Positions 3,944 to 30,134 of a stretch of DNA of 34,097 nt are shown in pieces (the stretch's first letter is position 1; each line of letters opens with the position of its first letter). The stretch lies in assembly GCA_020720325.1 (NCBI GenBank), contig DYOW01000002.1:1-34097 (forward strand), written 5' to 3'. Under the pieces are notes generated by a model. It worked only from the letters and a program-made list of their open reading frames with translations, was not told the DNA's origin and made no database searches. This DNA is from Desulfobulbus propionicus (GTDB taxonomy: Bacteria > Desulfobacterota > Dissulfuribacteria > Dissulfuribacterales > DYOW01). A program made the translations under genes and the position numbers.

Positions 3944-3957
3944 AATCTAATTTTTTT

Positions 3958-5121: not shown

Positions 5122-5144
5122 AAAAATCCCTCCTTAATATATTT

Positions 5145-6362: not shown

Positions 6363-6364
6363 AT

Positions 6365-7189: not shown

Positions 7190-7192
7190 AAA

Positions 7193-9476: not shown

Positions 9477-9496
9477 ATATCCTTTATCCCCTGATA

Positions 9497-10651
9497 TTAA
9501 ATTAATTGCCCTGTAAAATTTCCTGGTTTTATTGTTTCACTTTTATTGACAAGGTTTAAGTTTGCTATTTTTATAATATTTTCCGCTATATCCTGAGCTG
9601 CGTTTGTTTTCCCCAATTCTCTTGCCCTTAAAGACATATTTTTTAATCTCTCAGGCTGATTTATTAGGGATTCTATCTCTGATGCAAGCTTAACTGCGCC
9701 GGTCTCATCCTGTCTGAAAAAGAGGGCTGCCCCTGCATCCTGTATTTTTTTGGCATTTTCATCCTGATGACCACTGGTTGAATGGGGAAACGGGATAAAA
9801 ATCGCGGGTTTTCCCACTGCCGCAATCTCAGATATTGTGGTTGCGCCTGCCCTGCATATCACAAGGTCGGCGCAGTTATAAGCGCTTCCCATATCAGTTA
9901 TAAAATCATGCGCTCTGGCATTTATATTATTTTTTATATAAAATTCCTCAAGTTCCTTTTGGTCATTTTTTCCGCTCTGGTGAATAACCTCAATCTTTAT
10001 AGCGGAATTGCTCAAAATCTGCATTGCAGAGCTTGCAAGCCTGTTAAGTCCTGTAGCTCCCTGGCTGCCGCCAATAACCAAAATCTTAAAAAAATCCGAA
10101 CCTGACCCGAAAAACTTGGTATTGTTACAGGCAAGTATTTCTTTTCTGATTGGATTACCCGTTAATATAACATTTTTATCAGGAAAAAAATCCTTTGTTT
10201 CATTAAAACTTGTAAAAATTATATCTGAAAATCTGGCAGAAAGTCTGTTGGATAAACCTGGTTTCAGATTTTGTTCGTGTATGGCGGTGGTCTTACCCAA
10301 TATCTTTGCGGCAAGAATTACAGGACCCGCCACATATCCGCCTACCCCCACAACAATATGGGGATTAAATCTCATTATCTCCCTGGCAGATGATAAAATA
10401 TTAAAGGGAAGATTAAAAAGTGATATAATAGTCCCTGAAATGCCCATGCCCATTATTGGCTTTACGTTTAATATCCTGTGGCCCCATCCTGTATTTTCCA
10501 ATGCCATCATTTCAATTGGTCTTCCTGTTCCTATCCACAAAACCTCAGTGTCGCAAATATCCTCAAGGGCTTTAATAATTGCGACACCAGGAAAAATATG
10601 CCCTCCTGTGCCGCCTCCTGTTATAATAACCCTTATGCTACCTGCCTTCAT
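9497..10651 (-). CDS. murG: Lipid II synthase MurG (undecaprenyl-PP-MurNAc-pentapeptide GlcNAc transferase)
   Basis: GT28 glycosyltransferase that turns lipid I into lipid II on the inner face of the membrane, 384 residues. The first glycine-rich loop GGTGGHIFPG is at 13-22, a second motif GGSQGATGLN opens the C-terminal domain, and ICRAGATTISEI is the nucleotide-binding helix. The ATG overlaps the end of murD by 14 bases and is preceded by AAGGA. In most dcw clusters ftsW lies between murD and murG. Here the overlap leaves no room for it. Confidence 0.97.
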   Translation of the reverse strand: MKAGSIRVIITGGGTGGHIFPGVAIIKALEDICDTEVLWIGTGRPIEMMALENTGWGHRILNVKPIMGMGISGTIISLFNLPFNILSSAREIMRFNPHIVVGVGGYVAGPVILAAKILGKTTAIHEQNLKPGLSNRLSARFSDIIFTSFNETKDFFPDKNVILTGNPIRKEILACNNTKFFGSGSDFFKILVIGGSQGATGLNRLASSAMQILSNSAIKIEVIHQSGKNDQKELEEFYIKNNINARAHDFITDMGSAYNCADLVICRAGATTISEIAAVGKPAIFIPFPHSTSGHQDENAKKIQDAGAALFFRQDETGAVKLASEIESLINQPERLKNMSLRARELGKTNAAQDIAENIIKIANLNLVNKSETIKPGNFTGQLI

Positions 10652-12056
10652 ATTTTTCCTTAATATCTGCCACAGCCTTCATAAAGGCATCGCCCCTTTC
10701 TTCGTAATTTTTAAACATATCAAAGCTTGCGCATGCAGGTGAAAGCAAAACCGCATCATTAGGAGCAGCCATTTCTTTTGCAAGGGAAACAGCCTCATAA
10801 ATCGCCTCAAAACCATTTTTTTTGCTATTTATCATTATTACAGGGATAATATCTTCAAAAACATTTCTGAGAGATTCAGCCTCTTCACCAATTAGTATTG
10901 CTGCTTTCAGCCTTTTGGAAAGGGCATAACTCTTAAGCGGCAAATAACTCTCACCTTTTCCCCTGCCTCCGGCAATAAGCGCCACTGGATTTGAAATAGC
11001 GTCAAGGGCCTTCATAACCGATGCCACATTGGTTGCTTTTGAGTCATTATAATACTCTACATTATTAATTTTTTCCACAAATTGTATCCTGTGCGCAGGG
11101 GCTTTAAAATTATTTATTGTCCCTTGAATTGCCTCTCCTTCCACATTATTAATAAGTCCGAGAATTGCGGCGCAGGCAAGGTTTTCAAGATTGTGCGAGC
11201 CTTTTAACCGCCATTTTGATATGTTAAATCTCTGGGATTTACCGGGAATTTCTGTAATAAGGGTATTATTATCTATCTTCGCAAAATAATTGCCCTTCGG
11301 ATTATCGCCAAATAATATCATATTATTTGTTTTTTCCTTAAATCTATCTTCAAACTCCAAAAGATTTGAGTTTAACACAAGATATCCGTCTTTTTTAAGA
11401 AAATCACATACCTTAAACTTTGAATTAATATAATTTTCAAAACTTTTGTATCTGTCAAGGTGATCTGGCGTTATGTTGGTAATTGCGACCGATGTGAAAA
11501 CCGGCGACCCAAAATCATTAAGCTCTGAGAAACAATCAATTTGAAAACTGCTTATCTCAAGAACAGCAACCCTTCTGGTATTTCCATCCGCCACATATCC
11601 AATCAGTGGTTTTCCTATATTTCCCGCTACCGCCACAGGAATATCCGCATTCTTGAAGATACAGCCAGTAAGACTTGTGGTTGTGGTCTTGCCGTTTGTG
11701 CCTGTAATGCCGATAACAGGGCCGTCCCATAGCCTTATAGCAAGGTCAATCTCTCCCATAATTGGGATCTGTCTTTTTTTAATCTCTTTGATAATATCCA
11801 AATCAGGTGATATGCCAGGACTTGCCACAACAAGACTGGCATCTTTTATTGAATCAATAGTATGTCCGCCGGTTTCAAGATAAACATTATTAAGCCTGCA
11901 AAAATCAATAAAATCTCCTGATAAAGAAGAAAGTGGTTTATTATCGCTCAATAATACCTTTTTACCCTGAGATATAGCCCACCTTACAACCTCCCGGCCT
12001 GATATGCCTGCCCCAAGGACAGTTATGTTATTAATCTTTTCGAGTTTTTCTTTCAT
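10638..12056 (-). CDS. murD: UDP-N-acetylmuramoylalanine--D-glutamate ligase MurD
   Basis: ATP-dependent ligase that adds D-Glu, 472 residues. N-terminal dinucleotide-like fold [13 protein letters not shown]-loop [12 protein letters not shown] at 116-127, central [11 protein letters not shown] and ITPDHLDRY, and C-terminal YNDSKATN are all classic MurD signatures. The start overlaps the mraY stop in an ATGA arrangement and has only a poor ribosome binding site, so translation is probably coupled to mraY. Confidence 0.97.
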
Positions 12057-13132
12057 CTTAGTTTTAGTGTGCTTATTGCGATAAGTCCAAGAATAAGTGA
12101 AATAATCCAGAACCTCACTATAACCTTGGGTTCTTTCCAGCCAGAAAGTTCAAAATGATGATGAATTGGAGCCATCTTAAATATGCGTTCACCGCCGCTT
12201 AACTTAAAGTAACCCACCTGCATCATAACAGACAGCGCCTCCATAACAAAGACACCGCCAACTATTACAAGCAAAATCTCCTGTTTAACAAGTATTGCCA
12301 CAGCTCCAAGGGCGCCTCCCAGTGAAAGCGAACCCACATCGCCCATGAAAATACTCGCAGGATATGTGTTATACCACAGAAAACCAATGCCAGCCCCAAC
12401 CATTGCGGCGCAAAAAATTGTAAGTTCCCCCACCCCTGTCACAAATGGTATCTGCAGGTATTCGGCAATCCTAACGTTTCCGGCAAAATAGCTAAAAAGC
12501 ACATAAACAGCAGAGGCGACTATAAAAGGGCCAATTGCAAGGCCGTCAAGACCGTCAGTAAGGTTTACTGCATTTGAACATCCAACCACAACAAACGGCG
12601 CAAAAATCATATAGGCATAACCTATATCAGGTCTGATATTTTTAAAAAATGGAAGGCTTAGTTTTGTATCCCAGTTATTAAAATACATAAGCGCAAGGGA
12701 TGCAACAATCACAAATGATATTTGCAGCGCCATTTTGCCCCTTGCAGACAGTCCTTTTGTATTTTTTCTGCTTATTTTCCTGTAGTCGTCAATAAAACCT
12801 ATTCCTGCAAAAGCCACAAGTATAAATAAAACAAGCCATGTATAATGATTTGTAAGGTCAGACCACAGAAGGGCGCTAACACTTATTGAGAAAACAATAA
12901 GAATTCCACCCATACTTGGTGTTCCAGCCTTGGCAAGGTGTGATTTTGGCCCGTCATCCCTTATTATCTGACCCATTTGCAATTTTTGCATTTTTTTAAT
13001 AAACCATGGTCCCAAAAACAACATAAGGAAAAGCGATGTTAAAGCAGCATAAATGCTCCGAAATGTTATGTACTTAAATACATTAAATATTATATATATA
13101 TCTGATAATGGGTAAAATAAATGAAAAAGCAT
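12053..13132 (-). CDS. mraY: Phospho-N-acetylmuramoyl-pentapeptide transferase MraY
   Basis: Polytopic membrane enzyme that transfers phospho-MurNAc-pentapeptide to undecaprenyl phosphate, giving lipid I. It has 359 residues and about ten membrane segments. Signatures are [18 protein letters not shown] near the start, the FIDDYRK aspartate pair, [10 protein letters not shown] and the late [13 protein letters not shown] histidine cluster. All expected catalytic residues are present. Its ATG shares one base with the murE-murF stop (TAATG), and AAAAGGA in that gene's end serves as ribosome binding site. Confidence 0.98.
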
Positions 13133-16131
13133 TAATCCTTTTCCTTAAACTTATCAATAATAAAATCCGCTGCTTTTCTAAGTCCAATTGAATTTGATGC
13201 CTTGAGCAAAACAGCGCTGTCTGCAAACATCGCCTTAAGGTCACATTTTGAAAGCCAATCAATCAAAAGTTCAACATTATTAAAGTGTGTGATGTTAACC
13301 CTTTTAAGGTATGGGCTTTCATTAAAATACATAAAATTTTCACCCACATAAATAACTTCGTCAATGCCTGTGCCAAAAACAGAAGCGCCAAGTTCTTTAT
13401 GATATATGTGTGTGTTTTCACCAAGCTCAAGCATATCTCCGATTATTGCAATCTTTTTGGTATTTTTTCTTACTGCAATAAGGTTTTCCATTGCCTCTTT
13501 CATAGACGCAGGGCTTGCATTGTATGAATCATCAATAAGAAGAAAATTATTTGAAAGTGTGACAGGATTTAGCCTTCCCCTTACAGGCGCCACTTCTTCA
13601 AGGGCGTCTTTTATATCCCCTGTGGAGATTCCAAGGATATGACCTATGGCTATTGCGGATAAGGCATTTTGAACAGATGCCCTTCCCATAGTCTTAAGAT
13701 TTATTTCAATTTCCACACCCATGAGGTCTATAACAGCGCTGGTTTCTCCTTTTTCAGTTATGCGCCAGTTTTTGCAGCAAACAATCTGTTCAATATTATT
13801 TGAATCTTCCCCGCGCCTTTCAAAGGAAAATCCCAACTGCTGGCAGGAAAAATCCCCTGATAATTCCATAAGTATTGGGTCATCCATATTGATTAGGGCA
13901 ATATCTGTTTCAAGAAGGCTTTCAAAGAGGGCTTTCTTTTCATTTATAACCCCGTTAATTCCTCCAAGATACTCAAGATGCGCCGGCTGAATTGTGGTGA
14001 TAAGTCCTATCTGGGGACGGGCAATCTCACAAAGCCTTGAAATTTCGCCTTTTTGATTCATACCCATCTCAAGCGCCGCCCATTCGTGAAAAGGGGTTGC
14101 GCCAAGAAGAGTTAATGGAAGTCCTATAAGGTTATTAAAATTACCCTTTGTCTTAAGTGTATCAAATTTTTTAGCGACAACAGCCGCGATAAATTCCTTT
14201 GAAGATGTCTTGCCGCAGCTTCCTGTTATGCCTATAGTCTTTAATCCAAGTCTTTCCCTGTGCCATTTTGCAAGGTCTCCAAGGGCATGTAAAGTATCCT
14301 CAACACCGATTATTGTAACATTGCTGTTTCTGTATTTTGATGCAAGGTCATATCTTTTTCTGTCAATAACAAGGGCAGACACGCCTTTTTTAACGGCTTC
14401 GTCAAGATAATCATGGGCGTCAAATCTTTCGCCTTTTAATGCCACAAAAAGATTTGCGAATTTAAGGTTTCTTGTGTCAGTGGAAATACCCATAAAAATA
14501 TTATCAGAGTCACCAGCAAGCATTGTTCCTTCAATTTGGGACATTATCTGGTCAACCTTTGCGGAAAGTTTATAGCCTGACGATATTTCAGATAAAATCT
14601 CAACGGAATTAATATTTGAGCAGGCGGCTTTTATTTCTTCATGGTCAAGAAATCTCTCTTTTTTATCCCCGATAATCTGGTAATCCTCATGTCCCTTTCC
14701 GGCAATAAGGATGCAATCTCCCTGTTTTGCGAGCATTGCCGCGGCTTTTATGGCAGGCCTTCTGTCAGGAATCACCATAAATTTATCTTTATTTATAATG
14801 TTATATCCTGAAAGAGCGTCAGTTCCCTTTAATATATCAAAAATTATGCTGTCAGGGTCTTCGGAGCGCGGATTATCAGAGGTTATAATCACATGGTCAG
14901 CATAAACACCGGCAATTTCAGCCATTACAGACCTTTTATCCCTGTCCCTGTCGCCTCCACAGCCAAAAACTACAATAAGCTTCTCATTAACAATCTCTCT
15001 TAATACGGAAAGCACATTTTTAAGCGCATCCGGCGTATGGGCATAGTCAACAAATGCAGATATATTTTTTTCAATGGAAACAGGCTCAAGCCTTCCAGGG
15101 ACAAACGTTATATTTTCAATGCCAGCCTTTATGTCTTCAATATTTATATCAAGGCTTATTCCCGCAGAAATTGCAGTTAATATATTTAAAAGATTATGTC
15201 TTCCGATAAGCCTGCTTTTTATATCAATTTCGCCCCTGGGGGTGATACATCTTGTTATAATGCCGTTAATGCCTGAATAAAACGCCCTTGGTCTGACCAT
15301 TGCGTCAGGACTGAAACCATAGCTTATCCTGTTTTTATCACCAGAAAGCGACTCCCAAAGCCTTATTCCATAATCATCGTCAATATTTACAACAGCAGTC
15401 TCATAATCATATTCGTTAAAAAGTCTTGATTTTGCAACAAAATAGTTTTCCATATTGATATGATAATCAAGATGATCGTGCGTAAGATTTGTAAAGATAA
15501 CAGTCTTAAACCTTAATCCAAGGACTCTTTTCTGGTCAAGGGCATGGGATGACACCTCCATTGCCACTGTCTTAACATCTTCAGTAAGCATATCATCAAG
15601 AATGCTGTTTATATCAATCTGATTTGGAGTGGTCAGATTTGATTGTACTAATTTATTATTATATCTCTGATTTATTGTGCCAATAACACCTGAATTTATT
15701 TTTGCCTGTTTCAGAATTGATTCAATTATATAAGTTGTGGTTGTCTTTCCGTTTGTTCCTGTTATGCCTATCAAATCAAGCTTTGTTGAAGGATTATCAT
15801 AATACATACTAGATACATAGCCCAAATAAGTATATGTGTCATCCACTGCAAAAACGGTTATATCATCTGTAACAACGTCTTTTATCTTAAAAAAATCATT
15901 TTTATTGACACAAATATATTTGGCTCCGTTCTTAATTGCAGCAGGAACAAATTCAATTCCATCTGATTTTGTCCCTTTTATTGCCACAAAAAGATTCCCT
16001 GGCTTAACTTTTCTGGAATCACAGGCAATTCCTGAGATAATATCCTTAAGACCGGATGATATTTCATTTAAAAGAATTTCTTCTTCAGATGTATTTTCAA
16101 AAAAATCATTAAAAAAGCGAAGATATTGCAT
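13132..16131 (-). CDS. murE-murF: MurE-MurF fusion ligase
   Basis: A single uninterrupted 999-residue frame carries two complete Mur ligases. Residues 1 to about 505 are Mur[17 protein letters not shown]-loop [12 protein letters not shown] (122-133), [13 protein letters not shown] and the DNPR motif at 419-422. DNPR marks meso-diaminopimelate as the added amino acid. Residues from about 515 to 999 are Mur[18 protein letters not shown]-loop [11 protein letters not shown] (634-644) and [11 protein letters not shown]. Together they add meso-DAP and then D-Ala-D-Ala to the UDP-MurNAc-dipeptide. The joint is a short region with no obvious long linker. AAGGAG nine bases before the ATG is a good ribosome binding site. 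MurE-MurF fusions are known elsewhere (for example Bordetella) but are uncommon. Confidence 0.96.
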
Positions 16132-16144
16132 AAGTCTTTACTCC

Positions 16145-17836
16145 TTATTTAAATTTTAGCTGACATAGGGTTTTATGATTAATAGTGGTTCCGGGCGACG
16201 GGTATTGGGAAATCACAATTCCTGATCCTTCAAAAGACATGCCACATGAGCCATGAAGGGTTTTAAGGGCTTTTCTCATGGACATTCCGGACATATCAGG
16301 CATATTTTTTAAAACAGTTATATCTTCTTTTTGCGTGAATAACTCATTTTTATTCTGTGTATTTTCTTGCATTGTCAGCAGTTTAATTTTACTTGCATTT
16401 TGCGCCATTTCAAGAAATCTTTTTACATAATTATTTATTTCCTGCTGGTTAAAATCCATGCCGTTTGCTGAAATTATATATGATACCACAGGGTTATTAA
16501 CAGGATAATGCCCTATGATAATCATCTGTCTGTTCTCTTCACCGGAAAGATTAGGATTAATGTCATATGTGACAATGGGTTTTCCGTTGCTCAGGCTAAG
16601 AATTTTCCTTAAAAAAGCGCTGTATTTTTTTAATTCAAGCCTTTCAGCTTCAACCTCTTTTATGCTGTCTTTATTAAAGGCGTTAAAGCTAAAAAAAGGT
16701 TTCACCAGTTTGCCATCATTTATCAGGGCTGAGTATGCCCTTAATATCTGCAAAGGAGTTCCGTAAACATCCAACAGGTTTCTCTGTCCTGAATTAACAG
16801 CATCCTTAATTAATCCTCCTGTTTCATCAGGCAGGTCAATTTCTGTGTTTTGTCCGAATCCAAGAGAGACAAACAGGGAATGAAAATTTCCTTCATCTGT
16901 TATTGCCTTTAACATATTTTCATCAAAATGGCTCAAAATTTTGATATTTTCATTGATATTTGAGGGAATATTTTCCTTTACATTAGCAGAAGTCAACTCA
17001 AAAGAAGGATTATTTTTTTTATATGTTATCCAGTTTGAAAGGAGTATTACGGGTATTGGTCTGAAATTCTGGGTTATTGAGTTATTATTTATTTTTTTAT
17101 TATCTTTTATAAATAAATCATGATCTATAAGGGGATAATTGGCCATAGCAAGTATTTCGCCGGTGTCTATACCCATAAATATTGCAGAACCGGTTCCCCT
17201 AACATTTGACAATAGCTTTCCAAGCTCTGTTTCAGCATTTTTCTGGAGATTTTTTTCCATTGTTATATGAAAGGAAGGATTAATTTCATAATTTTCAAAA
17301 ATCTGATTTCTTAAGCTATTTTCATAAAAATATTCTAATCCGTCAATGGCGCGGTTATCTTTATCCAAAAAACCAAGGATATTTAATGCAAGTTTATTAT
17401 GAGGATAAGCCCTTTTTTCCTTTCTGATTATCTCAGCGCCCTTAATCTCAAGTTTTTTTATCATTTCAACCTGCTGAAGGGTTAAATCATCGGCAATCAT
17501 GGTTATAATCCTTGCGTTTGAAACCTTGTTTATAAGCTCTTTTTCATCAACATACACAATAGCCGCAATGGATTTAATCCACGAAGAATTCTCTGATGTA
17601 TGGGAAGGAGAGATATATAATGAATAGGAAGCGTTATTACTGACAATTACTTCTCCGCTTCTGTCTATAATTACTGATCTTCTTATATTATTCGAATTAT
17701 GAAAGTTATAGGTGATAGATGACTGGGAATTTTCATTAAATATAAAGAGTTTAATGACAACAATGGATAAAAAAACAAAAAAGCTGATTTTTATAACATG
17801 AATGAAATATGTAGTCTTTTTTCGTTCTTTGCTCAT
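16145..17836 (-). CDS. ftsI: FtsI/PBP3-like division protein with degenerate transpeptidase motifs and C-terminal PASTA domain
   Basis: 563 residues in the ftsI position between ftsL and murE. One membrane segment (about 10-33) is followed by the PBP dimerisation/pedestal domain (RRSVIIDRSGEVIVS at 52-66, AYPHNKLALNILGFL at 143-157) and a transpeptidase-like domain. Family landmarks remain: GEILAMANYP (226-235), GFGQNTEIDLPDETGG (326-341) and TPLQILRAYSALINDG (360-375). The catalytic motifs do not. The place of EPGSTFK reads RPIPVIL (259-265), so the serine is Pro262 and the lysine Leu265. SxN is LSH (301-303) and KTG is KPI (419-421). A PASTA domain fills about 505-563. The frame is intact and collinear, so this is a pseudo-enzyme rather than a frameshifted gene. 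A structural or regulatory divisome role is inferred. Confidence 0.88.
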   Translation of the reverse strand: MSKERKKTTYFIHVIKISFFVFLSIVVIKLFIFNENSQSSITYNFHNSNNIRRSVIIDRSGEVIVSNNASYSLYISPSHTSENSSWIKSIAAIVYVDEKELINKVSNARIITMIADDLTLQQVEMIKKLEIKGAEIIRKEKRAYPHNKLALNILGFLDKDNRAIDGLEYFYENSLRNQIFENYEINPSFHITMEKNLQKNAETELGKLLSNVRGTGSAIFMGIDTGEILAMANYPLIDHDLFIKDNKKINNNSITQNFRPIPVILLSNWITYKKNNPSFELTSANVKENIPSNINENIKILSHFDENMLKAITDEGNFHSLFVSLGFGQNTEIDLPDETGGLIKDAVNSGQRNLLDVYGTPLQILRAYSALINDGKLVKPFFSFNAFNKDSIKEVEAERLELKKYSAFLRKILSLSNGKPIVTYDINPNLSGEENRQMIIIGHYPVNNPVVSYIISANGMDFNQQEINNYVKRFLEMAQNASKIKLLTMQENTQNKNELFTQKEDITVLKNMPDMSGMSMRKALKTLHGSCGMSFEGSGIVISQYPSPGTTINHKTLCQLKFK

Positions 17837-17840
17837 AGAT

Positions 17841-18188
17841 TTAATCCCTGAGCCTTATTGTTTGATTTTCTTTTGGCGGATGCAAGCCCAGTTTTTTACT
17901 GTATTCATTATGGAGTTTTTGGGAAAAAAAATTGTTTTTTTCATCTGTAAGCGCTTTATACTGATTTATTAACGTATTCTGCTGTTCTTTCTGAGCATAT
18001 ATTTCCTGAAGATTTTTATTATAAAGATTGTTTAATGTTATTGTTGTCAGGATAAAAAGAAGAAAAATAATAGAAATAACTGCAATTTTGATTATTAACA
18101 AATCAATATCGCCGGAGCTCACACCTGCGCTATAGCTTTTGGCGCTATAATGCCTTGTGTAACTGTAACTTGCCGCTCTATAAGACAT
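17841..18188 (-). CDS. ftsL: FtsL-like division protein
   Basis: A small bitopic protein of 115 residues. A ~28-residue cytoplasmic tail is followed by one membrane segment (about 29-52) and a periplasmic coiled-coil-like stretch rich in Gln, Lys and Leu. It ends in LGLHPPKENQTIRL, which resembles the conserved FtsL end (LGMxxPxxxQxxxL). Identification rests on this layout plus position between rsmH and ftsI. FtsL/FtsB/FtsQ normally regulate FtsW-FtsI. The start overlaps rsmH by 11 bases, with GGAGG nine bases upstream. Confidence 0.85.
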   Translation of the reverse strand: MSYRAASYSYTRHYSAKSYSAGVSSGDIDLLIIKIAVISIIFLLFILTTITLNNLYNKNLQEIYAQKEQQNTLINQYKALTDEKNNFFSQKLHNEYSKKLGLHPPKENQTIRLRD

Positions 18189-19125
18189 TTAAATATTCCT
18201 CCTTTTTTTCAGCAACCCTGAGTTTTGCGCTTCTTGCCCTGGGATTTATCTGTATTTCTTCCTGAGAAGGCGTCAGAGGCTTTTTAGTAATAATTTTAAG
18301 CCGGTCATCACTTCTGAAACGGTCTTTTACTATTCTGTCTTCAAGGGAATGAAAGCTTATAACACAAATCCTTGCATTATCATTTAAATAATCAGGATAT
18401 ATTGCCAGGGCGTGGTTTATATTATCAAGCTCGGAGTTAACTGCGATTCTAAGCGCCTGAAATGTCTTTGTGGCGGGGTGGATGTGCTGGGAATGGAATT
18501 TTCTGGGAATAATCTTAAATATCAGGTCTGCAAGTTCTTTTGAGGTTTGTATCTTGTGTTCCCGTCTTTTTTCAACTATGACCTTTGCTATTTTTTTTGA
18601 CCATGATTCTTCGCCGTAAAGCCTTATTATTTCTTCAAGCTTATCTTCATTTAGAAAATTCACTATATCATAAGCATTATTTCTTCCGGATGAATTTATT
18701 CTCATATCAAGAGGCTCATCTCTTTTAAAGCTAAATCCCCTGCCGCTTTCTTCAAAATGATATGATGAAATGCCAAGATCCAATATAATGCCATCCACCT
18801 TATTAATTCCTTCCTGTTCAAGAAAAACAGGCAACTCAGTGAAATTGCCGTTATATAAATGTATTTTTTCTGAAAACGGATGGATAAATTCCTTTGCGCG
18901 CAAAATACTGGACTCATCCCAATCAATTGCAATCACACGCCTGATATCAGGATATGCCTTAAGAAGCGCAAGGGTATGTCCTCCCATGCCAAAGGTTGCA
19001 TCAACATAGATTCCATCCCTGACTGGCTTTAAATAGTCAAGGATTTCTCCGGGCATCACAGGCTCATGGGGACTGTTTGTGTGTTGAAGCGCTGAGTTCT
19101 GATATGATACGGCTGTAGTTATCAA
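18178..19125 (-). CDS. rsmH: 16S rRNA (cytosine(1402)-N(4))-methyltransferase RsmH (MraW)
   Basis: SAM-dependent methyltransferase for C1402 of 16S rRNA, 315 residues. Signatures are HEPVMPGEIL near the start, SAM loop DATFGMGGHT at 42-51, LDLGISSYHFEESGRGFSF and the late CVISFHSLEDRIVK. The start is a TTG at 19125-19123, 62 bases inside mraZ. It is supported by GAGGG six bases upstream, and no in-frame ATG exists before the conserved HEPVM. The C-terminus overlaps ftsL. Confidence 0.95.
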   Translation of the reverse strand: MITTAVSYQNSALQHTNSPHEPVMPGEILDYLKPVRDGIYVDATFGMGGHTLALLKAYPDIRRVIAIDWDESSILRAKEFIHPFSEKIHLYNGNFTELPVFLEQEGINKVDGIILDLGISSYHFEESGRGFSFKRDEPLDMRINSSGRNNAYDIVNFLNEDKLEEIIRLYGEESWSKKIAKVIVEKRREHKIQTSKELADLIFKIIPRKFHSQHIHPATKTFQALRIAVNSELDNINHALAIYPDYLNDNARICVISFHSLEDRIVKDRFRSDDRLKIITKKPLTPSQEEIQINPRARSAKLRVAEKKEEYLNVL

Positions 19126-20163: not shown

Positions 20164-20889
20164 ATGAAAAATAATCAATCATCCCCAAAAGGCGCTGTTT
20201 ACGGCATAGGAATGGGGCCGGGCGACCCTGAGCTTATCACAGTAAAGGCATGTAAAATCCTTGAAAATACACCTCATATATTCACGGCATCATGTTCTGA
20301 AAATGAATACAGCAGGGCGCTTGACATATTAAAGCCTTACTTAAAAGATAAGCCTGTAACCAAGTTGAAATTTCTCATGAAACGGGATAAGGCGGTTCAG
20401 GATGAGATATGGAAGGAAAATGCCCTTCGCATTTTGTCTGAGACAGAAAAAGGGGATGACGCTGCCTTTATAACAATGGGAAATCCCCTTACATATTCCA
20501 CATGGGGATATATCCTTAAAAACATAAAAAAAATATCGCCTGAGACTCAAACTTTTACAATACCCGGCATTACCTCCTATAATGGTGTGTCAGCAGCGTT
20601 AAATATTATTTTAACTGAATCTGACGAGTCATTTTACCTTATTTCAGGGCTTGACAAAGATAAGATTGAAAATGCCCTTAAAATAGCGGATACCATCGCA
20701 ATATTAAAGGTGCATAAGTATTTTGACGCTATTTATGAAATACTTGAAAGACACGGGCTTCTTGATTCCTCAATCCTTGCGGTTCAGTATGCAATGGAGG
20801 GTGAGATTATCCATAATTCTTTAAGACATTGCAGGGGGATGAAACTGCCTTATTTTTCGCTTATTATTGTAAAAAAGAAACAGGATTAA
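20164..20889 (+). CDS. cbiL: Precorrin-2/cobalt-factor II C20-methyltransferase
   Basis: SAM-dependent tetrapyrrole methylase of 241 residues with the opening GAVYGIGMGPGDPELITVKA (the GxGxGxGDPxL motif) and AAFITMGNPLTYSTWGYIL in the middle. It also has the family TIPGITSYNGVSAALN segment. It methylates C20 of the corrin precursor. The presence of cbiD and cbiET next to it argues for the anaerobic (early cobalt insertion) route, hence CbiL rather than CobI. The ribosome binding site is poor: the nearest AGG is about 17 bases before the ATG. First gene of a three-gene cobalamin run. Confidence 0.9.
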   Translation: MKNNQSSPKGAVYGIGMGPGDPELITVKACKILENTPHIFTASCSENEYSRALDILKPYLKDKPVTKLKFLMKRDKAVQDEIWKENALRILSETEKGDDAAFITMGNPLTYSTWGYILKNIKKISPETQTFTIPGITSYNGVSAALNIILTESDESFYLISGLDKDKIENALKIADTIAILKVHKYFDAIYEILERHGLLDSSILAVQYAMEGEIIHNSLRHCRGMKLPYFSLIIVKKKQD

Positions 20890-20913
20890 AGTAATTAATA
20901 AGTACAGGATTTT

Positions 20914-21999
20914 ATGGATAAATCAGCGTTAAGGACAGGTTTTACTACAGGAACAGCGTCATCTGCCGCTGTAAAGGCCGCGATAATGGCTTATTTTGGT
21001 GAAAATCCTGAAGATGTTGATATCTTGCTGCCAATTCATAAAAATATCAAAATTCCCGTGTTTAAGATAGACAGATATTGTAATTATACAGAGGCAAGAA
21101 TTATTAAAGATGGCGGGGATGACCCTGACGCCACCCATGAGGCGGAAATCGGGGCAAAAATTATCATGATGAAAAAGCCGCAATTTTCTGGAAATACTGA
21201 GGTTTTTATAAAAGGCGGAAAAGGTGTGGGTATGGTCACAAAAAAGGGGCTGGCAATTTCACCCGGAAATCCCGCTATTAACCCTGTTCCCCTTAAGATG
21301 ATAACAAACGTTTCCCATGATGCCTTAAATTTATTAAAAATCACAGATTCTTACGAGATTTTTGCTGAAATATTTGTTGAGAAAGGCGAAGAAATAGCCA
21401 AAGAGACCCTTAATGCAAGGCTTGGAATTATATGCGGAATTTCTATACTTGGAACTACCGGGATTGTCAGGCCTTTTTCAAATTCAGCATACATGGCAAC
21501 AATTCAGCTTGCTTTAAAGATAGCCAAAAATGCAGGTGTCACAGAGATAATTCTTACAACAGGTTCAACAAGCGAACGCGCCGCAATGGAATTATTTCCG
21601 GATTTTCCAGAAGAAGCCTTTGTTATGACAGGAGATTACATAAAATTTTCTATGGAGCAATGCCAGAGAAATAATTTTGAGGACGTGACATTTTTCCTGT
21701 TTTTCGGAAAGGCAGTAAAGATTGCGTCAGGACTTCCCAATACACATGCGTCAAAGGGTGATGTTGACCTTGCAATATTTAAAATTTTCAAAAAGAACAA
21801 CGATGAAATCATAGAAAACATAGTTAATTCCAACACGGCAAGAGAGGCTTACGAAAAAATAATGGCTCATAACCTTTTCTCAATTATAGAAGGCATTGGA
21901 AACATGGTTGTTAAAAAGCTCAGGCAGTATGCCCCTGAAATTTTAAATATACAATGTTATCTTCTTGATTATGAAAACAGGGTGATATGGCAGGGATAG
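20914..21999 (+). CDS. cbiD: Cobalt-precorrin-5B C1-methyltransferase CbiD
   Basis: 361 residues with the diagnostic N-terminus LRTGFTTGTASSAAVKAA and internal GGDDPDATHEAEI, KGGKGVGMVTKKGL and TTGIVRPFSNSAY segments, all typical of CbiD. It methylates C1 during anaerobic ring contraction. The start lies 24 bases after cbiL with AGGA five bases upstream. Length is normal. Confidence 0.96.
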   Translation: MDKSALRTGFTTGTASSAAVKAAIMAYFGENPEDVDILLPIHKNIKIPVFKIDRYCNYTEARIIKDGGDDPDATHEAEIGAKIIMMKKPQFSGNTEVFIKGGKGVGMVTKKGLAISPGNPAINPVPLKMITNVSHDALNLLKITDSYEIFAEIFVEKGEEIAKETLNARLGIICGISILGTTGIVRPFSNSAYMATIQLALKIAKNAGVTEIILTTGSTSERAAMELFPDFPEEAFVMTGDYIKFSMEQCQRNNFEDVTFFLFFGKAVKIASGLPNTHASKGDVDLAIFKIFKKNNDEIIENIVNSNTAREAYEKIMAHNLFSIIEGIGNMVVKKLRQYAPEILNIQCYLLDYENRVIWQG

Positions 22000-23246
22000 A
22001 AACCCAAAAAGATAATAGAGCCAGAATTTATGTAATAGGCGCAGGGATTTCTCCTGAAAATATTCCTGCGTCATATCTTGAAATCATTCAAAGGGCAGGG
22101 GTTCTTGTGGGAGGGAAAAGGCTGCTTACATTTTTCTCTGAACACCAGGGGCTTAAGATTGAGATACATGGGGATATAGATGAGGTTTTTAATAAGGTTC
22201 GGGAATATAGTGACAATAAAGGGGATGTTGTGATTCTTGCATCAGGGGATCCGCTTTTTTTTGGCATAGCAGCGCGGGTATTAAACGAATTTGACAGGGA
22301 AATTATTGAGATTTTGCCAAATATATCATCAATTCAGCAGGTTTTTGCAAAGATAAAAGAACCCTGGCAGAATGTCCCGACTATTACACTACACGGGAAA
22401 AAACAAAGATTGCGTTATTTTGAAATAATCCGCCATTTTAAAAATAAAAATAGCGCCATTTTAATACTTACTGACAGATTTAATTCTCCAAATGAAATCG
22501 CAGGTTTTCTCATAGAAAATGGTCTTGGCAGCATAAAAATGATTGTTGCGGAGGAACTTGGCTCTGAAAGGGAGCGCCTTACCCATTGCCTGCCCTCTGA
22601 GATATTGCAAACACAATTTTCCAATCTCAATGTGGTTATCCTGAAAAACGAACATCCTGAAGCCATTAATTTTTTATCAGGAACCGGGCTTGATGATAGT
22701 TTATATAAACATGAGAAAGGCCTTATTACAAAGAGTGAAATACGGGCAGTCATTCTATCAAGGCTTAATCTGCAAAAATCACATATTTTCTGGGATATTG
22801 GGGCTGGCTCAGGGGCAATAAGCATAGAGGCTGCGAATTTTATAAATCCTGAAAATATATATGCCATTGAAAAAGACCCTTTGCGATGCGAAGATATAAA
22901 AGAAAACATGCATAGATTTTATTTAAATAATATTAATCTCATAAATGCTGCCGCCCCTGAATGTTTAAGGGATTTGCCATGCCCTGACAGGGTTTTTATA
23001 GGGGGAAGTAATGGAAAAATAGATAAAATTCTTGATATTATCATAGAAAAAATAAATAAAAACGGTAAAATAATTATATCCGCCGTGCTTTTGGATACAA
23101 TAAAGAGCTTATTAAATTACCTTGATGCGTCCCATGATATAGGCTTTGAAGTATTGCAAATATCTCTCCATAAATCTGAAAACCTTGGTAAATCCTTATT
23201 CCTTAAGCCTTATAATCCCTGCTGGCTTTTTTTATTAGATTTTTAA
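21987..23246 (+). CDS. cbiET: CbiE-CbiT fusion (precorrin-6B C5,15-methyltransferase/C12-decarboxylase)
   Basis: A 419-residue two-domain protein, the same arrangement as CobL. CbiE occupies about 13-205 (IYVIGAGISPENIP, VILASGDPLFFGIAARVL). CbiT occupies about 240-419, with LITKSEIRAVILSRL and SAM loop DIGAGSGAIS at 270-279, then PDRVFIGGSNGKID. It methylates C5 and C15 and decarboxylates the acetate at C12. The ATG overlaps cbiD by 13 bases with CAGGGTGAT as ribosome binding site, so the two are translationally coupled. Confidence 0.95.
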   Translation: MAGIETQKDNRARIYVIGAGISPENIPASYLEIIQRAGVLVGGKRLLTFFSEHQGLKIEIHGDIDEVFNKVREYSDNKGDVVILASGDPLFFGIAARVLNEFDREIIEILPNISSIQQVFAKIKEPWQNVPTITLHGKKQRLRYFEIIRHFKNKNSAILILTDRFNSPNEIAGFLIENGLGSIKMIVAEELGSERERLTHCLPSEILQTQFSNLNVVILKNEHPEAINFLSGTGLDDSLYKHEKGLITKSEIRAVILSRLNLQKSHIFWDIGAGSGAISIEAANFINPENIYAIEKDPLRCEDIKENMHRFYLNNINLINAAAPECLRDLPCPDRVFIGGSNGKIDKILDIIIEKINKNGKIIISAVLLDTIKSLLNYLDASHDIGFEVLQISLHKSENLGKSLFLKPYNPCWLFLLDF

Positions 23247-24246: not shown

Positions 24247-26043
24247 CTACGTATCGTTGTCGTTTTCACCTTCCATTTCTTCATCATCCTTTATTTCGGA
24301 CAATTTTACCAGTATGGACGAGGTGAATCTTCCGTCTATGAGGTGGCTGTGTTTCGGGATATTTTCCCATTCAAATCTTAATTCCTCAAGACATTCATAA
24401 ATAATTCTTTTTACCCGCTCTTCGGGGAGGTTGTGTTTTGTAATGATATGTTCAAGTATATGAAGACACATATTAATTGTTTTTTCAGGAACAGAATCAG
24501 TTTCAGGAAACCACATTTCTTTCAGAGGAACAAGCTCAAACTCAGGAACAGGAATAATCTTGAACACGCCATAAAGAGAGACATTTGCAAATGCTGTCAA
24601 AAGTCCTTTATGCCACAAAAATTCATTGGGGTTAAGAAGGTTTGTATTCCTGAAATCAAGTTCAAAGTCCCATTTAGACCAGTTTGGATTAACTTCAGAC
24701 ATTATCACGCCCCAGACGTAGATATCAGAAATAAAATCTTCATATTCCTCAATCTGGCTAATATCTGAAAAAAATATCTCTTCTTTATTGTCAAGATACA
24801 TTGGGATGGTATTATTTAACGGATTTATGATGTTTTGCCATGTTTCAGGGAGATAAGCAAGACCATGCGGCAAAAGCCCCTGGCTTATCAGGGCATTGAC
24901 TTTTTTCCTTATTTCGAGAAGCCCTGAAATTGCAATCCTCACAAGGTCTTCAAGGACAGAAACCTCAAGTATCTCGGTAAAAGAATTTTTTGTTTCTATT
25001 TTACCCTGAATGGAAATGCCAAGATTTAATAATGAACCCACACCAATAAGAGTTTTTTCCATCATTTTAGGGTCATTAAAATCTTCGAGGTTTGAAATCA
25101 TAAGCTTATTTGCCACGCCAATCCACTCATTAATTATCCTCTCCATTGTATTTCTTCCGTAAAGAGGCGCCAAGGCCTGATTAAGGATAGGAAAGTCACC
25201 TTGATAAAGTGTTGGGATAAAAGGAGGAAAAAAATCCTCATTTATCCCGGATTGCAGGTAGATATGAGGGTCAATTTTTCTGACTTTTCCAAAAGGGAGA
25301 GGGGTAAGTATTTCAATCGCTTCATAATATTGTGGTATGCCATAATCCGCTAGTCTTCCGTTTCTTAAACGGAAGGCATTTTCAAGGGACTCAGTTTTTG
25401 TTTCCCATAAAATGCTGTCCATTATTCCAAAATAGTATTCAGGGGAGAAGTCAAAGATAGTTCTTAAAAATCTGTCAATAAGGGGAGCGAGCTTGTCAGA
25501 TCTGAAGTCTATAAAAAATATATTGTCAATGGTATATCCGTAAAGCACATCTTTTGCTTCCATAATATCCATGTCATCCGGTTTTTTCTGAACCATTATA
25601 AATTGTCGCAGAATAAGTGGGATAAGGGCTTCATCTTCTTTTGAAATCCAGTTAAGCCATGCTGACAATGACATTTCATCTGTTTCAAAGAACAAAAAAA
25701 GCCATGATGCAATGCTGTCTGTCCTTAAATCCTGTTTATGCCACCATTCAAGATCAAAAAAGAATTGAACTTGTTCTGCTTTGACATGGGGCAAAATTAA
25801 AAGGGCATCTTCAGGGCTTACTGATTTAATTGTCCAGAAAAGTTCTTCAGCAGGGAAATTTTGTATTATTTCAGATATATCTTTTGATAATAGCAAAAGA
25901 TCAATTCTTTTTTCCCATGGCGCTAAAAGGCAAACCTGTATTTGTTCCAGCGCTGACAAATTATTAAAGGATTCCTCTGCTATTTTGCCGGGAAGTGATA
26001 AAAATGTTGCAGGATTTAATCCGGATGTATTATAATAAGTCAT
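24247..26043 (-). CDS. DUF6178-like protein of unknown function
   Basis: A 598-residue, acidic, apparently soluble protein with no signal peptide or membrane segment. The N-terminal ~120 residues show a helical pattern (LLLSKDISEIIQNFPAEEL, VSPEDALLILPHVKAEQV, FFFDLEWW) recalling MgtE-N/FliG-like superhelical repeats. The middle has FRLRNGRLADYGIPQYYEA, which I associate with the DUF6178 family of Desulfobacterota. No enzyme motif is seen. The last ~15 residues are almost all Asp/Glu. A minus-strand promoter TTGGCT-18-TATAAT (26119-26090) is possible. The gene is divergent from a DHp-type histidine-kinase-like gene, with only 107 bases between the starts, which suggests common control. Family assignment is from memory. 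Confidence 0.6.
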   Translation of the reverse strand: MTYYNTSGLNPATFLSLPGKIAEESFNNLSALEQIQVCLLAPWEKRIDLLLLSKDISEIIQNFPAEELFWTIKSVSPEDALLILPHVKAEQVQFFFDLEWWHKQDLRTDSIASWLFLFFETDEMSLSAWLNWISKEDEALIPLILRQFIMVQKKPDDMDIMEAKDVLYGYTIDNIFFIDFRSDKLAPLIDRFLRTIFDFSPEYYFGIMDSILWETKTESLENAFRLRNGRLADYGIPQYYEAIEILTPLPFGKVRKIDPHIYLQSGINEDFFPPFIPTLYQGDFPILNQALAPLYGRNTMERIINEWIGVANKLMISNLEDFNDPKMMEKTLIGVGSLLNLGISIQGKIETKNSFTEILEVSVLEDLVRIAISGLLEIRKKVNALISQGLLPHGLAYLPETWQNIINPLNNTIPMYLDNKEEIFFSDISQIEEYEDFISDIYVWGVIMSEVNPNWSKWDFELDFRNTNLLNPNEFLWHKGLLTAFANVSLYGVFKIIPVPEFELVPLKEMWFPETDSVPEKTINMCLHILEHIITKHNLPEERVKRIIYECLEELRFEWENIPKHSHLIDGRFTSSILVKLSEIKDDEEMEGENDNDT

Positions 26044-26150
26044 CTATATTAATTTTCCGAAATGTATTATTTTTGTTTTTCATTTTGATATTATAACTTA
26101 ATTATAACCAGAAAGCCAACCTTACAATCTAAAATTTTCAGGAGGGTAAA

Positions 26151-26861
26151 ATGGACACTAAGAACCTTGAATATTTTTTTACTGAAAACTATTCAGCAAT
26201 CATCATAGGAAATCTTATGCATGGGGCGCTCCATAACCTGAACGGCCCTTTGCAGACACTTACCATGCAATCTGATTTAAATAGGCTTGATTATGAAAGA
26301 TTTATTAGGGATTCAGTTGCGTTAACCGATGAATTCAGAGAAAAATACCAAAAAAAATGTGGTAATTTTGAAAAAGAATTAAATAAGTTAAAGGAAATAA
26401 CAGGGAATATTGCTCAGAAAATGGGTGATAAAGATAAAAAACCAGTTATTCTTGCTTATCTTATAAAAAATGCCATAGATTTCTGGAAGGCGGATTTATT
26501 TTTTAAGCATCAGATAAAAGTCAATCTAAATCTCCCTGCAAAAGATTTATATGTTCTGGTTTATGAATACATGCTCACAGAACTTATTGACGCCTTTTTT
26601 TTCCTTAATATTGAGACGCTTAAAAAGGCAAAGGAAAAAGGAAATCATGAGCTAATCATTAATATTGAACTTGCTCTTGACAAGGACAATCCTGAGATGA
26701 AAATTTTAACTATTTCAAATAATTGTGAAAATATAGAAATCGAGGAATTTCCGGCTGTCATAAACCTTAACAGTATTTCAGGCTTTATTATTAATAATTT
26801 TGCAGAAAAATTGAATATGAAGCTGGAAATTTTTGAAAAATCTTTGAAAATTACAATGTGA
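26151..26861 (+). CDS. Small histidine-kinase-like protein (DHp H-box, degenerate ATPase domain)
   Basis: 236 residues, soluble. The start has a very strong ribosome binding site (AGGAGGG, four bases before ATG). Residues 24-35 read HGALHNLNGPLQ, in which His28 heads an H-x-L-x-x-P-L H-box like that of HisKA domains. A helical hairpin (about 40-100) could complete a four-helix phosphotransfer bundle. The C-terminal ~130 residues lie where a HATPase would be, but the N-box (ELIDAFFFLN in place of NLLxNA) and the DxGxG boxes are missing. ATP hydrolysis is therefore unlikely. The layout recalls phosphotransferases such as Spo0B or ChpT. No input or membrane domain is present. Function is inference. 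Confidence 0.6.
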   Translation: MDTKNLEYFFTENYSAIIIGNLMHGALHNLNGPLQTLTMQSDLNRLDYERFIRDSVALTDEFREKYQKKCGNFEKELNKLKEITGNIAQKMGDKDKKPVILAYLIKNAIDFWKADLFFKHQIKVNLNLPAKDLYVLVYEYMLTELIDAFFFLNIETLKKAKEKGNHELIINIELALDKDNPEMKILTISNNCENIEIEEFPAVINLNSISGFIINNFAEKLNMKLEIFEKSLKITM

Positions 26862-26870
26862 TAAAAAATT

Positions 26871-29800
26871 TTAAGCTTTTTCCAATGTTTTTATTATTGC
26901 AAGCAGTTTGTCAATTTTTACAGGTTTTGAGAGAAAATCATCCATTCCTGCCTGTTTGCACCGGTCAATATTATCTGATATCACATCAGCGGTAAGGGCA
27001 ACAATAACCGGTTGATTAGCGGCGCTTATTTCTTTTCTGATTTTTTTTGTTGCTTCTATGCCGTCCATATCAGGCATCTGTATATCCATAATCACCAGAT
27101 TATAGTTTTTCTCCCTGATCATATTAAATGCCTCAATGCCGTTTTGGGCAAGGTCAGCGCTGTATCCGGATTTCTCAAGGAGAATCATCATTAATTTCTG
27201 GTTGATGATATTGTCTTCAACAATAAGAATATTGATTTGTTTATTTTTTTGTTGATAATCCAATTTTGTTTCTTCCTGTTTTTCAGGAGAATATATAGAA
27301 AGAATATTAAATAACCTTTTGACTGAAACTGGTCTGACAATTATTTTGTGTGGTTTTATGGTTTCTTCTGCTTTTTTATATAAATGAAGGGGTATTATCA
27401 AAATAATTGAGGCATTTGAGAATTTCCTTTTAATTTCTGATGTGTAAAATATTTTTTCACGGTTGATTTCAGAAAAAGAAAAGATAAAAAAGTCAATGTG
27501 TTCATTAAGCTCTGCATCTTTTAACGTGTCATATTGACTGGATTTTAAACCCCATAAATCAAAATATGGTTTCAGGCAATCATAGAGCATTGTATCTTTT
27601 GATATAAAAACACAATTCTTGTCCTTAAGGGCAGGGTTTTCATTTAAATAAGGTAAAGAATTCCTTAAATTTTTCTTTAACTCAATATTAAAAAAGAATT
27701 TTGTCCCTTTTCCCTCAATGCTTTCAAAAAAAATGTTCCCTTTCATCAATGTGATTAATTTTTTGGTTATAACAAGCCCCATGCCGGTTCCGCCGAATCT
27801 TCTTGTGATTGACTGGTCTCCCTGACTAAAAGGTTTGAATAGATTGTTTATATTTTCTCTGGAGATGCCTATGCCGGTGTCTTCAATAATAAATTTGATA
27901 TGGATGGTGTCTCCTTCACTTAACATTGGCTCAAGTCTTATTGCAATATAGCCTTTTAATGTAAATTTTATTGCATTTCCTATTAAATTAATTAATATTT
28001 GCTTTAATTTGGCCTCATCCCCTATTACATAACCTGAAATTATTGGGTCTATAAAATGATAAAATTCAATATTTTTTTCCATTGCAACAGAAGAAAAGGA
28101 TGCCAGGACTTCTTCCACAGTATTTCTTATATCAAAGGATTTTTCCTCAAGTTTTGTCTTATATGCTTCAATTTTGGTAAAATCAAGGATATCATTAATT
28201 ATTGAAAGGAGATTTTCTCCGCTTATTTTTATGTTTTTTAGATATTCATTTTGTTCGCTGGTTAGAGAGGTGTCATTTAAGAGGTTGGAAAAACCAATTA
28301 TAGAATTTAAGGGGGTTCTTATTTCATGGCTCATCATGGCAAGGAAATCACTTTTCGCCCGGTTTGCCCTTTCAGCCTCTACTTTTGCCTTTAATATCCT
28401 TTGATTGTCCTTAAAGGTGGAAAAATAAGAACCAAGATTTGTCGCCAGATTATTAAAGAGATTTCTTACCTTGTCATCCCAGAAGAGCATGTCATTTTTT
28501 TCAAGGCACAAAAGCGCCCATAGTTTTCCATAGACATTAACAGGAAGTATAAGACACGAGCTTTTTGTTATATCATAAAGCAAACACGCGTCCCCATGAT
28601 GGAAAAACAAGGGATTTACGATTAATTCTTTATTCTGATATATAAAGTTATATCTTGATTTTAACAGGACTGTAGAAAGATTTTCCGGGAAAAAATTTTC
28701 TGTCTTTTGCGCATTATTATACCAGTAATACGAAAGCTTAAAGGATTCCACATCATTAATATTGATGTTTTCATACAAAGCCATGCGTGAAAATTCGATG
28801 GTCTCGCCAAGAATATTAAAAATTTTCTCAATGGTTACATCCACGTTTGAGTGAGACAATAAAAATTGCAAAACGCTTGACACAACATTGCTTATCTGAA
28901 GATATGATTGTTCCGAAGATATATCCTGGATGATTAACCATATCTCTTCATTATCGCCGGATTTTTTTAATATGCCTGAATAAGAAATATATTTTACGCT
29001 ATTTTTCAGGGCTATTTTAAGGTTAAAAGGGCCAAAAGAATTAATATTTTTTTTAGGATTTATAATATTAAAAATAAAAGAACAATCTATAAGCTCATTC
29101 AAAAAAATTTGTTTGTTTTGGATATCGCCGTAATTTAGACTAAATAAATCAATAAATTGCTTGTTTCCATCAACCAGCATATTATTCCTGAAATAACCCA
29201 TGCCAAGGGGAAGAAGCATAAAAAGAGTTTTAAGCTTATTTTCGCTTTCCTCCAATTGTCTCTGGAAATTTTTTCTCTGGGTGACATCCTCAAATATTCC
29301 AAGAAATTTTATAAGGTTATTATTGGAATCATAAATTGGAGACACGGAGACATCTATCCATATCTCCTTATTATTGTCAAATCTTGAAAATTCTCCTTTC
29401 CATGCCCTTTTTTCCCTGACTTCTTTCCATATTTTTGAGGTAAAATTTTTGGTGTTCTGATGAAAAACGGATAAAGGCTGACCTATTAATTGCTCCAGAG
29501 GAACATTTAATAATTTTTCCGCAACCAGATTGGCATATGACACTACGCTATGCTCATCAAAAAGAATAATGCCGTGCTGATTTTGATTTAACGCATAGTT
29601 AAGCTCGCTTATTTTGAATTCTTGTTCTTTAAGGGAGGTGATATCAGTAATAATGCCTACTATGCCTGAAATTTCATTATTTTTATCCCTTAATAAGGAT
29701 TTGTTAAGCATTATAAAATTAGATTTATCAGCTTTTTTTACTTCAGTAACGTATTCCTGAACGTCGAGGCTTTCTAATAAATCCCTGTCCTGCTGTTCAT

Positions 29801-30134
29801 AGAATTTTGCAGTATCATGGGAGAAAATCTCATAAAGTGAACTTCCTACTATTTTTTCATTTGGTAATTCCAGAAATTTTTCAAAAGCAGAGTTACAGTA
29901 GGTGTATATTAACTCCTTGTTTTTGATGTAAACAGGATTTTTAATCACATCGAATAATTGGAGGAGACAATGTAGGGTTTCTTCAATTGTGCCGCAGGTA
30001 TTATTTATTTCATCTATAAAGCTTAGAATATTTTTGCCGGAGACATCTGTATTATTCTGGCATTTTTTTATAAGGTTTTCTCTTAGTGAAGATAGTCCTG
30101 CCAATATATTTCTTATTTTTTTAATATTTTCCAT
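26871..30134 (-). CDS. Hybrid sensor histidine kinase (PAS-PAS-PAS-GAF-HisKA-HATPase-pseudoREC-REC)
   Basis: 1087 residues without a membrane segment, so a cytoplasmic sensor. In order: three PAS domains (about 58-170, 175-290, 300-410), a GAF domain (415-571), and HisKA with [10 protein letters not shown] and phospho-acceptor His603. An intact HATPase follows (700-815: N-box [25 protein letters not shown]). A domain shaped like a receiver but lacking its acidic residues lies at about 838-945, and a true receiver at 966-1087 has Asp1017 in [10 protein letters not shown]. It follows dtd by 29 bases on the same strand, with no ribosome binding site of note. No separate response regulator is adjacent, so the output must lie elsewhere. 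A diffusible or redox cue for PAS/GAF is likely but unproven. Confidence 0.92.

Follow-up and report, generated by a model that had tools for sequence, protein, structure and literature searches.

Phosphotransferases that descend from histidine kinases have been described in several bacteria. ChpT from Caulobacter consists of an H-box hairpin followed by a C-terminal Bergerat-like domain that does not bind ATP; it has no sensor and passes its phosphate to receivers, including CtrA (as set out in the accessible text of PMC3433190). PhyT and PhyP from Sphingomonas carry a conserved His together with a degenerate ATPase domain and are encoded at the locus of their own response regulator, PhyT being the middle member of the SdrG-PhyT-PhyR relay, and Spo0B, ChpT and PhyT are all regarded as kinases that lost ATP binding (both from the accessible text of PMC5898713). 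The same step from kinase to phosphotransferase seems to have been repeated in Desulfobacterota. Here, relatives that keep their ATP boxes still stand in the same operon, and because of this the change is open to homologue comparison.

The locus lies in a stretch of 34,097 nucleotides from Desulfobulbus propionicus (assembly GCA_020720325.1, contig DYOW01000002.1), which was analysed at its full length and is called the window below. Among the members of its lineage are Seep-SRB2 bacteria, which partner methane-oxidising archaea and are placed in the order Dissulfuribacterales in the accessible text of PMC10553843. The features are collected in Table 1. The initial annotation had described a DUF6178-like protein encoded head to head with a Spo0B/ChpT-like candidate, here called the DHp protein, and its coordinates, the orientation and the 107-base gap between the two starts are all reproduced. 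The hybrid kinase gene does converge on the pair as described, yet it ends 9 bases from the DHp stop and not ten. Within the gap, a ribosome-binding-like AGGAGGG is found 4 bases 5' of the DHp ATG, while a promoter scan gave a single sigma-70-like match, which lies on the minus strand and is not above chance (shuffles, mean 1.6).

Table 1. Positions of the features discussed, numbered from the first letter of the window.
Feature	Position	Strand	Basis or remark
DUF6178 protein, 598 aa, divergent partner	24247..26043	minus	PF19676 profile match; AF2 model
DUF6178 N-terminal ~215 residues, superhelix, weak MgtE-N / FliG-M likeness	25399..26043	minus	VIA-align, Pfam; a lead, not an assignment
Divergent intergenic region, 107 bp	26044..26150	no strand	sequence
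DHp protein, 236 aa, kinase-dead, derived from a soluble histidine kinase; candidate phosphotransferase	26151..26861	plus	
DHp-like helical hairpin of the DHp protein, residues 3-89 (helices 3-54, 60-89)	26157..26417	plus	AF2 model
H-box GALHNLNGPLQTLTMQSD of the DHp protein, residues 25-42	26223..26276	plus	His28 codon 26232-26234
Degenerate catalytic (HATPase-like) domain of the DHp protein, residues 94-236	26430..26858	plus	N and G boxes absent
Hybrid kinase, 1087 aa, convergent; neighbour, membership in the system not supported	26871..30134	minus	Pfam

Like ChpT, the DHp protein has an H-box hairpin, a predicted dead Bergerat-like domain and no sensor. It differs from ChpT in matching no Pfam family at E<=1, in its pairing with DUF6178, and in having arisen within a Desulfobacterota kinase family that has living, ATP-competent relatives. 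Spo0B from Bacillus is also a kinase-derived phosphotransferase and dimerises via helical hairpins, but the DHp protein, with no Pfam match at this threshold, differs from it in lineage, H-box and genomic setting. The Spo0B/ChpT-like label consequently fits the anatomy, i.e. the H-box, the predicted DHp hairpin and the dead catalytic-like domain, but does not extend to a profile match with either family. The conserved His and the degenerate ATPase domain are common to PhyT and the DHp protein, whereas PhyT has a membrane anchor, a periplasmic domain and the motif HRxxN, and the DHp protein is soluble and reads HNxN. By analogy, a conserved His, a dead ATP site and two operon receivers would give the anatomy of the SdrG-PhyT-PhyR relay. 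The phylum relatives with intact boxes (such as L173, L202 and L069) have the same H-box, the FFKH segment and REC-SHOCT and/or REC-GAF-HD-GYP neighbours, but their ATP boxes are intact and DUF6178 does not adjoin.

His28, correctly assigned to an H-box in the initial annotation, sits in the segment GALHNLNGPLQ and is invariant in 39/39 sequences of a first alignment (38 members of the order and one outside sequence) and in 48/48 of a second one, so that the conservation check proposed for it came out positive. The second alignment holds the window protein and 47 of 55 candidates, leaving out five with non-Met starts, a near copy, a truncated row and L137; a third holds the window protein and 25 of 27, leaving out one non-Met start and one near copy. 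In the first alignment G25, H28, N29, N31, Q35 and M39 of the H-box are all invariant, and mean column identity in the DHp alignments with invariant His28, N29, N31 and Q35 is 30-35%. The residue that follows His28 is Asn, as it is in 90% of the outside relatives with intact ATP boxes. HisKA, Spo0B and ChpT have an acidic residue after the phosphorylatable His, which is Asp in ChpT. Searched alone, the DHp protein matched nothing in Pfam at E<=1 that passed HMMER's filters. The absence of a membrane domain, already noted, agrees with a highest 19-residue Kyte-Doolittle mean of 1.32.

An AF2 monomer model of the DHp protein, computed with a 48-row alignment, reached pLDDT 93.0 and pTM 0.87. It consists of two helices, His28 lying in the first, and an alpha/beta domain behind them, which still has the predicted fold of a catalytic domain. 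Histidine kinases head the PDB list in a profile search with the DHp family, and the best Foldseek match of the model is the Leptospira hybrid LvrB (E 1.9e-9). With VIA-align the model superimposes on WalK at Z 16.1 (182 residues, 3.0 A); DivL (15.4), CckA (14.6), RetS (14.1-14.2) and HK853 (about 14 to 15) are also among the matches listed. ChpT and Spo0B are not among the best 50 listed, which is uninformative either way. The C-terminal domain of the model matches the catalytic domain of ThkA at Z 15.8 (129 residues, 2.4 A).

The predicted fold is preserved, but the ATP-binding motifs are not. None of 30 DHp sequences of the order carries the G1 or G2 box (DxGxG, GLGL), while outside the order 28 of the 29 rows labelled intact have both and one has GLGL only; these labels had been assigned with a looser version of the motifs, so that the stricter count tightens the split and is no independent test of it. 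One member of the order, L037, is counted under the loose G2 pattern and not under the stricter one, and we take its match as GIGI inside a strand; one outside row, probably L180 with its cut N-terminus, dropped from the H-box slice of the stricter count. In a second, named set, whose genomes overlap the first, 36/36 rows of the order type have neither G box, and of the 28 others 26 have the first and 27 the second (hand count). The N box is absent by eye in the aligned rows of the order. Pfam, the alignment and the motif counts agree that the 236-aa protein has no intact HATPase_c domain. The initial annotation was thus right that the ATP-binding motifs are missing, but it did not mention the catalytic-domain-like fold that remains. 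Taken together, these comparisons show, at the level of sequence and predicted fold, a protein descended from a histidine kinase that has lost its ATP motifs.

In the DHp tree the order falls into a single clade (98/94, seen in 99% of the bootstrap trees). The window protein has the longest branch of this tree (2.17) and is at most 29% identical to any other member, and for these reasons it may be drifting. Seven DHp rows from outside the order also carry neither G box. These relatives (L186, L187, L198, L189, L203, L204 and L207, from families f72, f39 and f97) are shorter, at 197-242 aa, and those of f72 and f97 keep adjoining REC-SHOCT and HD-GYP genes. In the DUF6178 tree f72 and f39 cluster with the window's order (100/99). 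The DHp tree, which leaves out L045, L195, L196, L206, L208 and L209 as short or doubtful, is unrooted and compatible with one box loss as well as with separate losses in the order and in f72, f39 and f97.

Elsewhere in the phylum, the DHp gene comes after two response-regulator genes, which Pfam resolves as REC-SHOCT and REC-GAF-HD-GYP. Other families of the order have the same layout, REC-SHOCT (about 225 aa) and REC-GAF-HD-GYP (about 530 aa) followed by DHp, and DUF6178 faces this operon, so that the two regulator genes separate it from DHp. One or both regulators are present in the fetched stretch of 29/41 DHp loci outside the order and 20/30 inside. All four receiver motifs were matched in 20/23 REC-SHOCT rows. 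Of the HD-GYP rows, 20/21 have both the HD and the GYP motif, and the one that does not is half of a split gene; for many HD-GYP rows the receiver patterns are too narrow and stay blank, so that they do not establish receiver integrity there. In one genome, G004, the HD-GYP gene appears split into two overlapping frames (L060:281-1844, minus strand), and its DHp gene breaks off where the contig ends.

Both regulator genes are missing from the window's genome, which was searched as a whole (a draft, 97.55% complete, which can hide genes). The likely ancestral partners of the DHp protein have hence been lost and are invisible in the window. Both are likewise missing in 10/11 genomes of family f2 that were searched, only G030 keeping them, and two of these ten have a partial HD match near 1e-51 to larger proteins. 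G019 of family f5 has neither, while its relatives G004 and G012 keep both; its DHp and DUF6178 genes stand 157 bp apart (L088). Placed on the DUF6178 tree, the genomes without regulators require three changes, and the well-supported branches by themselves already demand three. The regulators, as judged from this tree, are lost independently three times, in the window's lineage and in two others, and each time the DUF6178/DHp pair is kept. Partial losses also occur, of HD-GYP in G006 and G014 and of REC-SHOCT in G027. Candidate orthologues in the window's genome were rejected. The best REC-SHOCT match, on contig C104 (41% over 128 aa; L071:1291-1887, minus strand), has a REC domain and a C-terminus rich in cysteine and adjoins its own histidine-kinase fragment, and the HD-GYP matches cover only parts of the protein.

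For six regulator-less f2 genomes, 15 pairs per gene were compared by Nei-Gojobori (dS exceeding 1 in some), and dN/dS came to 0.18-0.30 in DHp and 0.19-0.30 in DUF6178. This indicates that both genes are still under purifying selection after the regulator loss and that neither is decaying. In 10/10 genomes without the regulators the H-box is intact, and Gln at H+7 and Met at H+11, which we take to be regulator-contact positions of DHp helix 1, are unchanged.

The convergent hybrid kinase contains PAS, PAS, HisKA, HATPase_c and REC domains by Pfam, with a weak GAF match below cut-off. It had been proposed as the phosphate donor, a role that lost its support here: the fetched loci hold no close homologue beside DHp. 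A phmmer search against the fetched ORF sets gave six matches at E<=1e-20 (best 1.2e-26), of which L086 is the only one from the order (E 3.4e-25, kinase 1.4 kb from DHp), and we rejected the hybrid kinase as a conserved partner.

DHp homologues were found in 47/60 genomes searched, the window's included, and DUF6178 in 48/60. Both genes lie on one contig in 34/46 genomes of the order (G000-G045), always divergently, as counted by hand from the search tables, and G004, with its split DHp gene at the contig end, shows the same arrangement. The conserved neighbourhood that the initial annotation expected across Desulfobacterota is therefore a property of the order, since DUF6178 stands beside DHp in 0/41 tabulated loci outside it. 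Six genomes of the order have the pair on different contigs. In G038, G039, G041 and G044 the contig ends about 2.2 kb or less from the DHp gene, and linkage may just be cut there. In G006 and G027 the two genes are really apart, because the contigs run well past both. DHp had no match in G002, G007 and G024, whose DUF6178 genes are near a contig end, and DUF6178 had none in G026 and G045. Since the DHp gene of G026 (L086) is flanked on each side by nearly 6 kb without DUF6178, it can stand without this neighbour, unless a DUF6178 gene is missing from an assembly that is 87% complete.

The 598-aa partner is indeed the large acidic DUF6178 protein that had been suggested: it has a pI of 4.56 and matches PF19676 at E 1.7e-104 (350.7 bits against a gathering cut-off of 25.5) over positions 1-560 of 561. 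Among the phylum genomes sampled 192/395 have this family, against 0/14 control genomes, DUF6178 is named nowhere in the literature searched, and a query with the protein against genome contigs gave no relative. A link to the DHp protein would hence be a first functional handle on it. The AF2 model (pLDDT 86.6, pTM 0.73) is mainly helical, Foldseek found nothing at E<=0.001, and model and searches suggest no enzyme fold. VIA-align gave scores of Z 9.8, 8.4 and 8.3 with MgtE cytoplasmic domains and 7.5 with FliG, mainly over the first ~215 residues, values that according to the tool helical models can reach by chance, and Pfam MgtE_N scored E 0.071, below cut-off. The modelled N-terminus may be a protein-binding superhelix, which we treat as a lead and no more. 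In other orders, ten DUF6178 neighbours that were scanned have no shared theme, and unrelated metabolic genes adjoin.

We consider the DHp protein to be most likely a dimeric His phosphotransferase which evolved independently from a soluble histidine kinase, losing ATP binding and keeping its DHp part; the probability that we give to this reading is about 0.48. In this reading the phosphate would pass from a receiver aspartate to His28 and from there to another receiver. In most of the order the two receivers would probably be REC-SHOCT and REC-GAF-HD-GYP of the same operon, and because of this the relay would set c-di-GMP breakdown through HD-GYP. In the window's genome both operon receivers are gone, so donor and acceptor would have to be receivers encoded elsewhere, or DUF6178 would itself be a partner. 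The helical, scaffold-like DUF6178 protein, which selection may mostly have kept beside DHp, perhaps steers or gates the relay. That DUF6178 is a direct non-receiver partner or output, with a kinase-dead phosphotransferase outliving its operon receivers and signalling via an alpha-solenoid protein, we regard as a long shot. A phosphorelay step of this kind is not described in the literature searched, and a DUF6178 partnership, to which gene order alone points, would be new. Searches for histidine phosphotransferases in Desulfobacterota found no literature, those for SHOCT with response regulators (titles and abstract openings) nothing on this system, and those for degenerate histidine kinases, phosphotransferases and HD-GYP nothing on it among the matches listed. 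The best-supported part of our reading is the apparent independent change from a kinase to a phosphotransferase-like protein. Against the reading as a whole count the Asn after His28, the long branch of the window protein and the fact that its genome yielded no receiver as partner candidate, as well as the unlinked pair outside the order and the exceptions G006, G026 and G027 inside it.

Several other roles for the DHp protein have to be weighed. RetS and DivL act as non-catalytic binding scaffolds, and both are among the best structural matches listed. The DHp protein could in the same way leave His28 unphosphorylated and merely bind a receiver, a kinase or DUF6178, and the atypical Asn at H+1 and the long branch would suit such a role. 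We nevertheless find it rather unlikely, as His28, N29, N31 and Q35 have stayed invariant in relatives whose columns average 30-35% identity. Somewhat less probable still is a dedicated response-regulator phosphatase or sink, which drains receivers and never passes the phosphate on. With its ATP boxes missing, the DHp protein is expected to have no kinase activity, which agrees with a sink, and one receiver would suffice, which bears on a window that lost both operon receivers; but H+4, where we assume Thr or Asn to be the HisKA phosphatase residue, is Gly in 9/10 regulator-less genomes, the window's included. PhyT, with its degenerate ATPase domain, moreover transferred phosphate and had no phosphatase activity, according to the accessible text of PMC5898713. 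If the protein were still a kinase, working through an unconventional nucleotide site, this would explain why the catalytic-like fold is kept at high model confidence, yet with G1 and G2 gone in 30/30 members of the order and the N box gone by eye such activity is highly improbable.

A separate question, compatible with any of these roles, is whether DUF6178 and DHp have a joint function at all or are historical neighbours which were never broken apart. The lack of linkage outside the order, where DUF6178 adjoins unrelated metabolic genes, speaks for mere neighbourhood, as do the ordinary dN/dS of both genes and the genomes G026, G006 and G027, with the genes apart or one alone. What speaks against it is that the pair outlasts three independent deletions of the genes between, and that the next commonest neighbour cluster, a TP-methylase (c2), reaches 11 of the 41 sources clustered. 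In addition, all 7 box-less outside DHp rows come from DUF6178-bearing genomes, as against 16/29 intact ones, in a hand count of rows that are not phylogenetically independent. We therefore judge an absence of joint function unlikely, while giving it more weight than any of the alternative roles above. The phosphotransferase reading stays our preferred one for the DHp protein itself.

The remainder of the window contains a division and cell-wall cluster (888-19125, minus strand) with ftsZ, ftsA, murC, murG, murD, a fused murE-murF, a penicillin-binding protein and rsmH. The MurE-MurF fusion (13132-16131, minus strand) is 999 aa long, and its 908 bits with the bifunctional model fall short of the cut-off of 1023. 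The same cluster also encodes an asparagine-synthase-like amidotransferase and a glycosyltransferase, both of which match XrtA/PEP-CTERM system models below cut-off. On the plus strand, 20164-23246 holds the cobalamin genes cbiL and cbiD (NCBIfam) and a TP-methylase/methyltransferase fusion, which are followed by a Fur-family regulator. Several other loci of the order have a TP-methylase from this BLAST cluster (c2, 11 sources) close to DUF6178.
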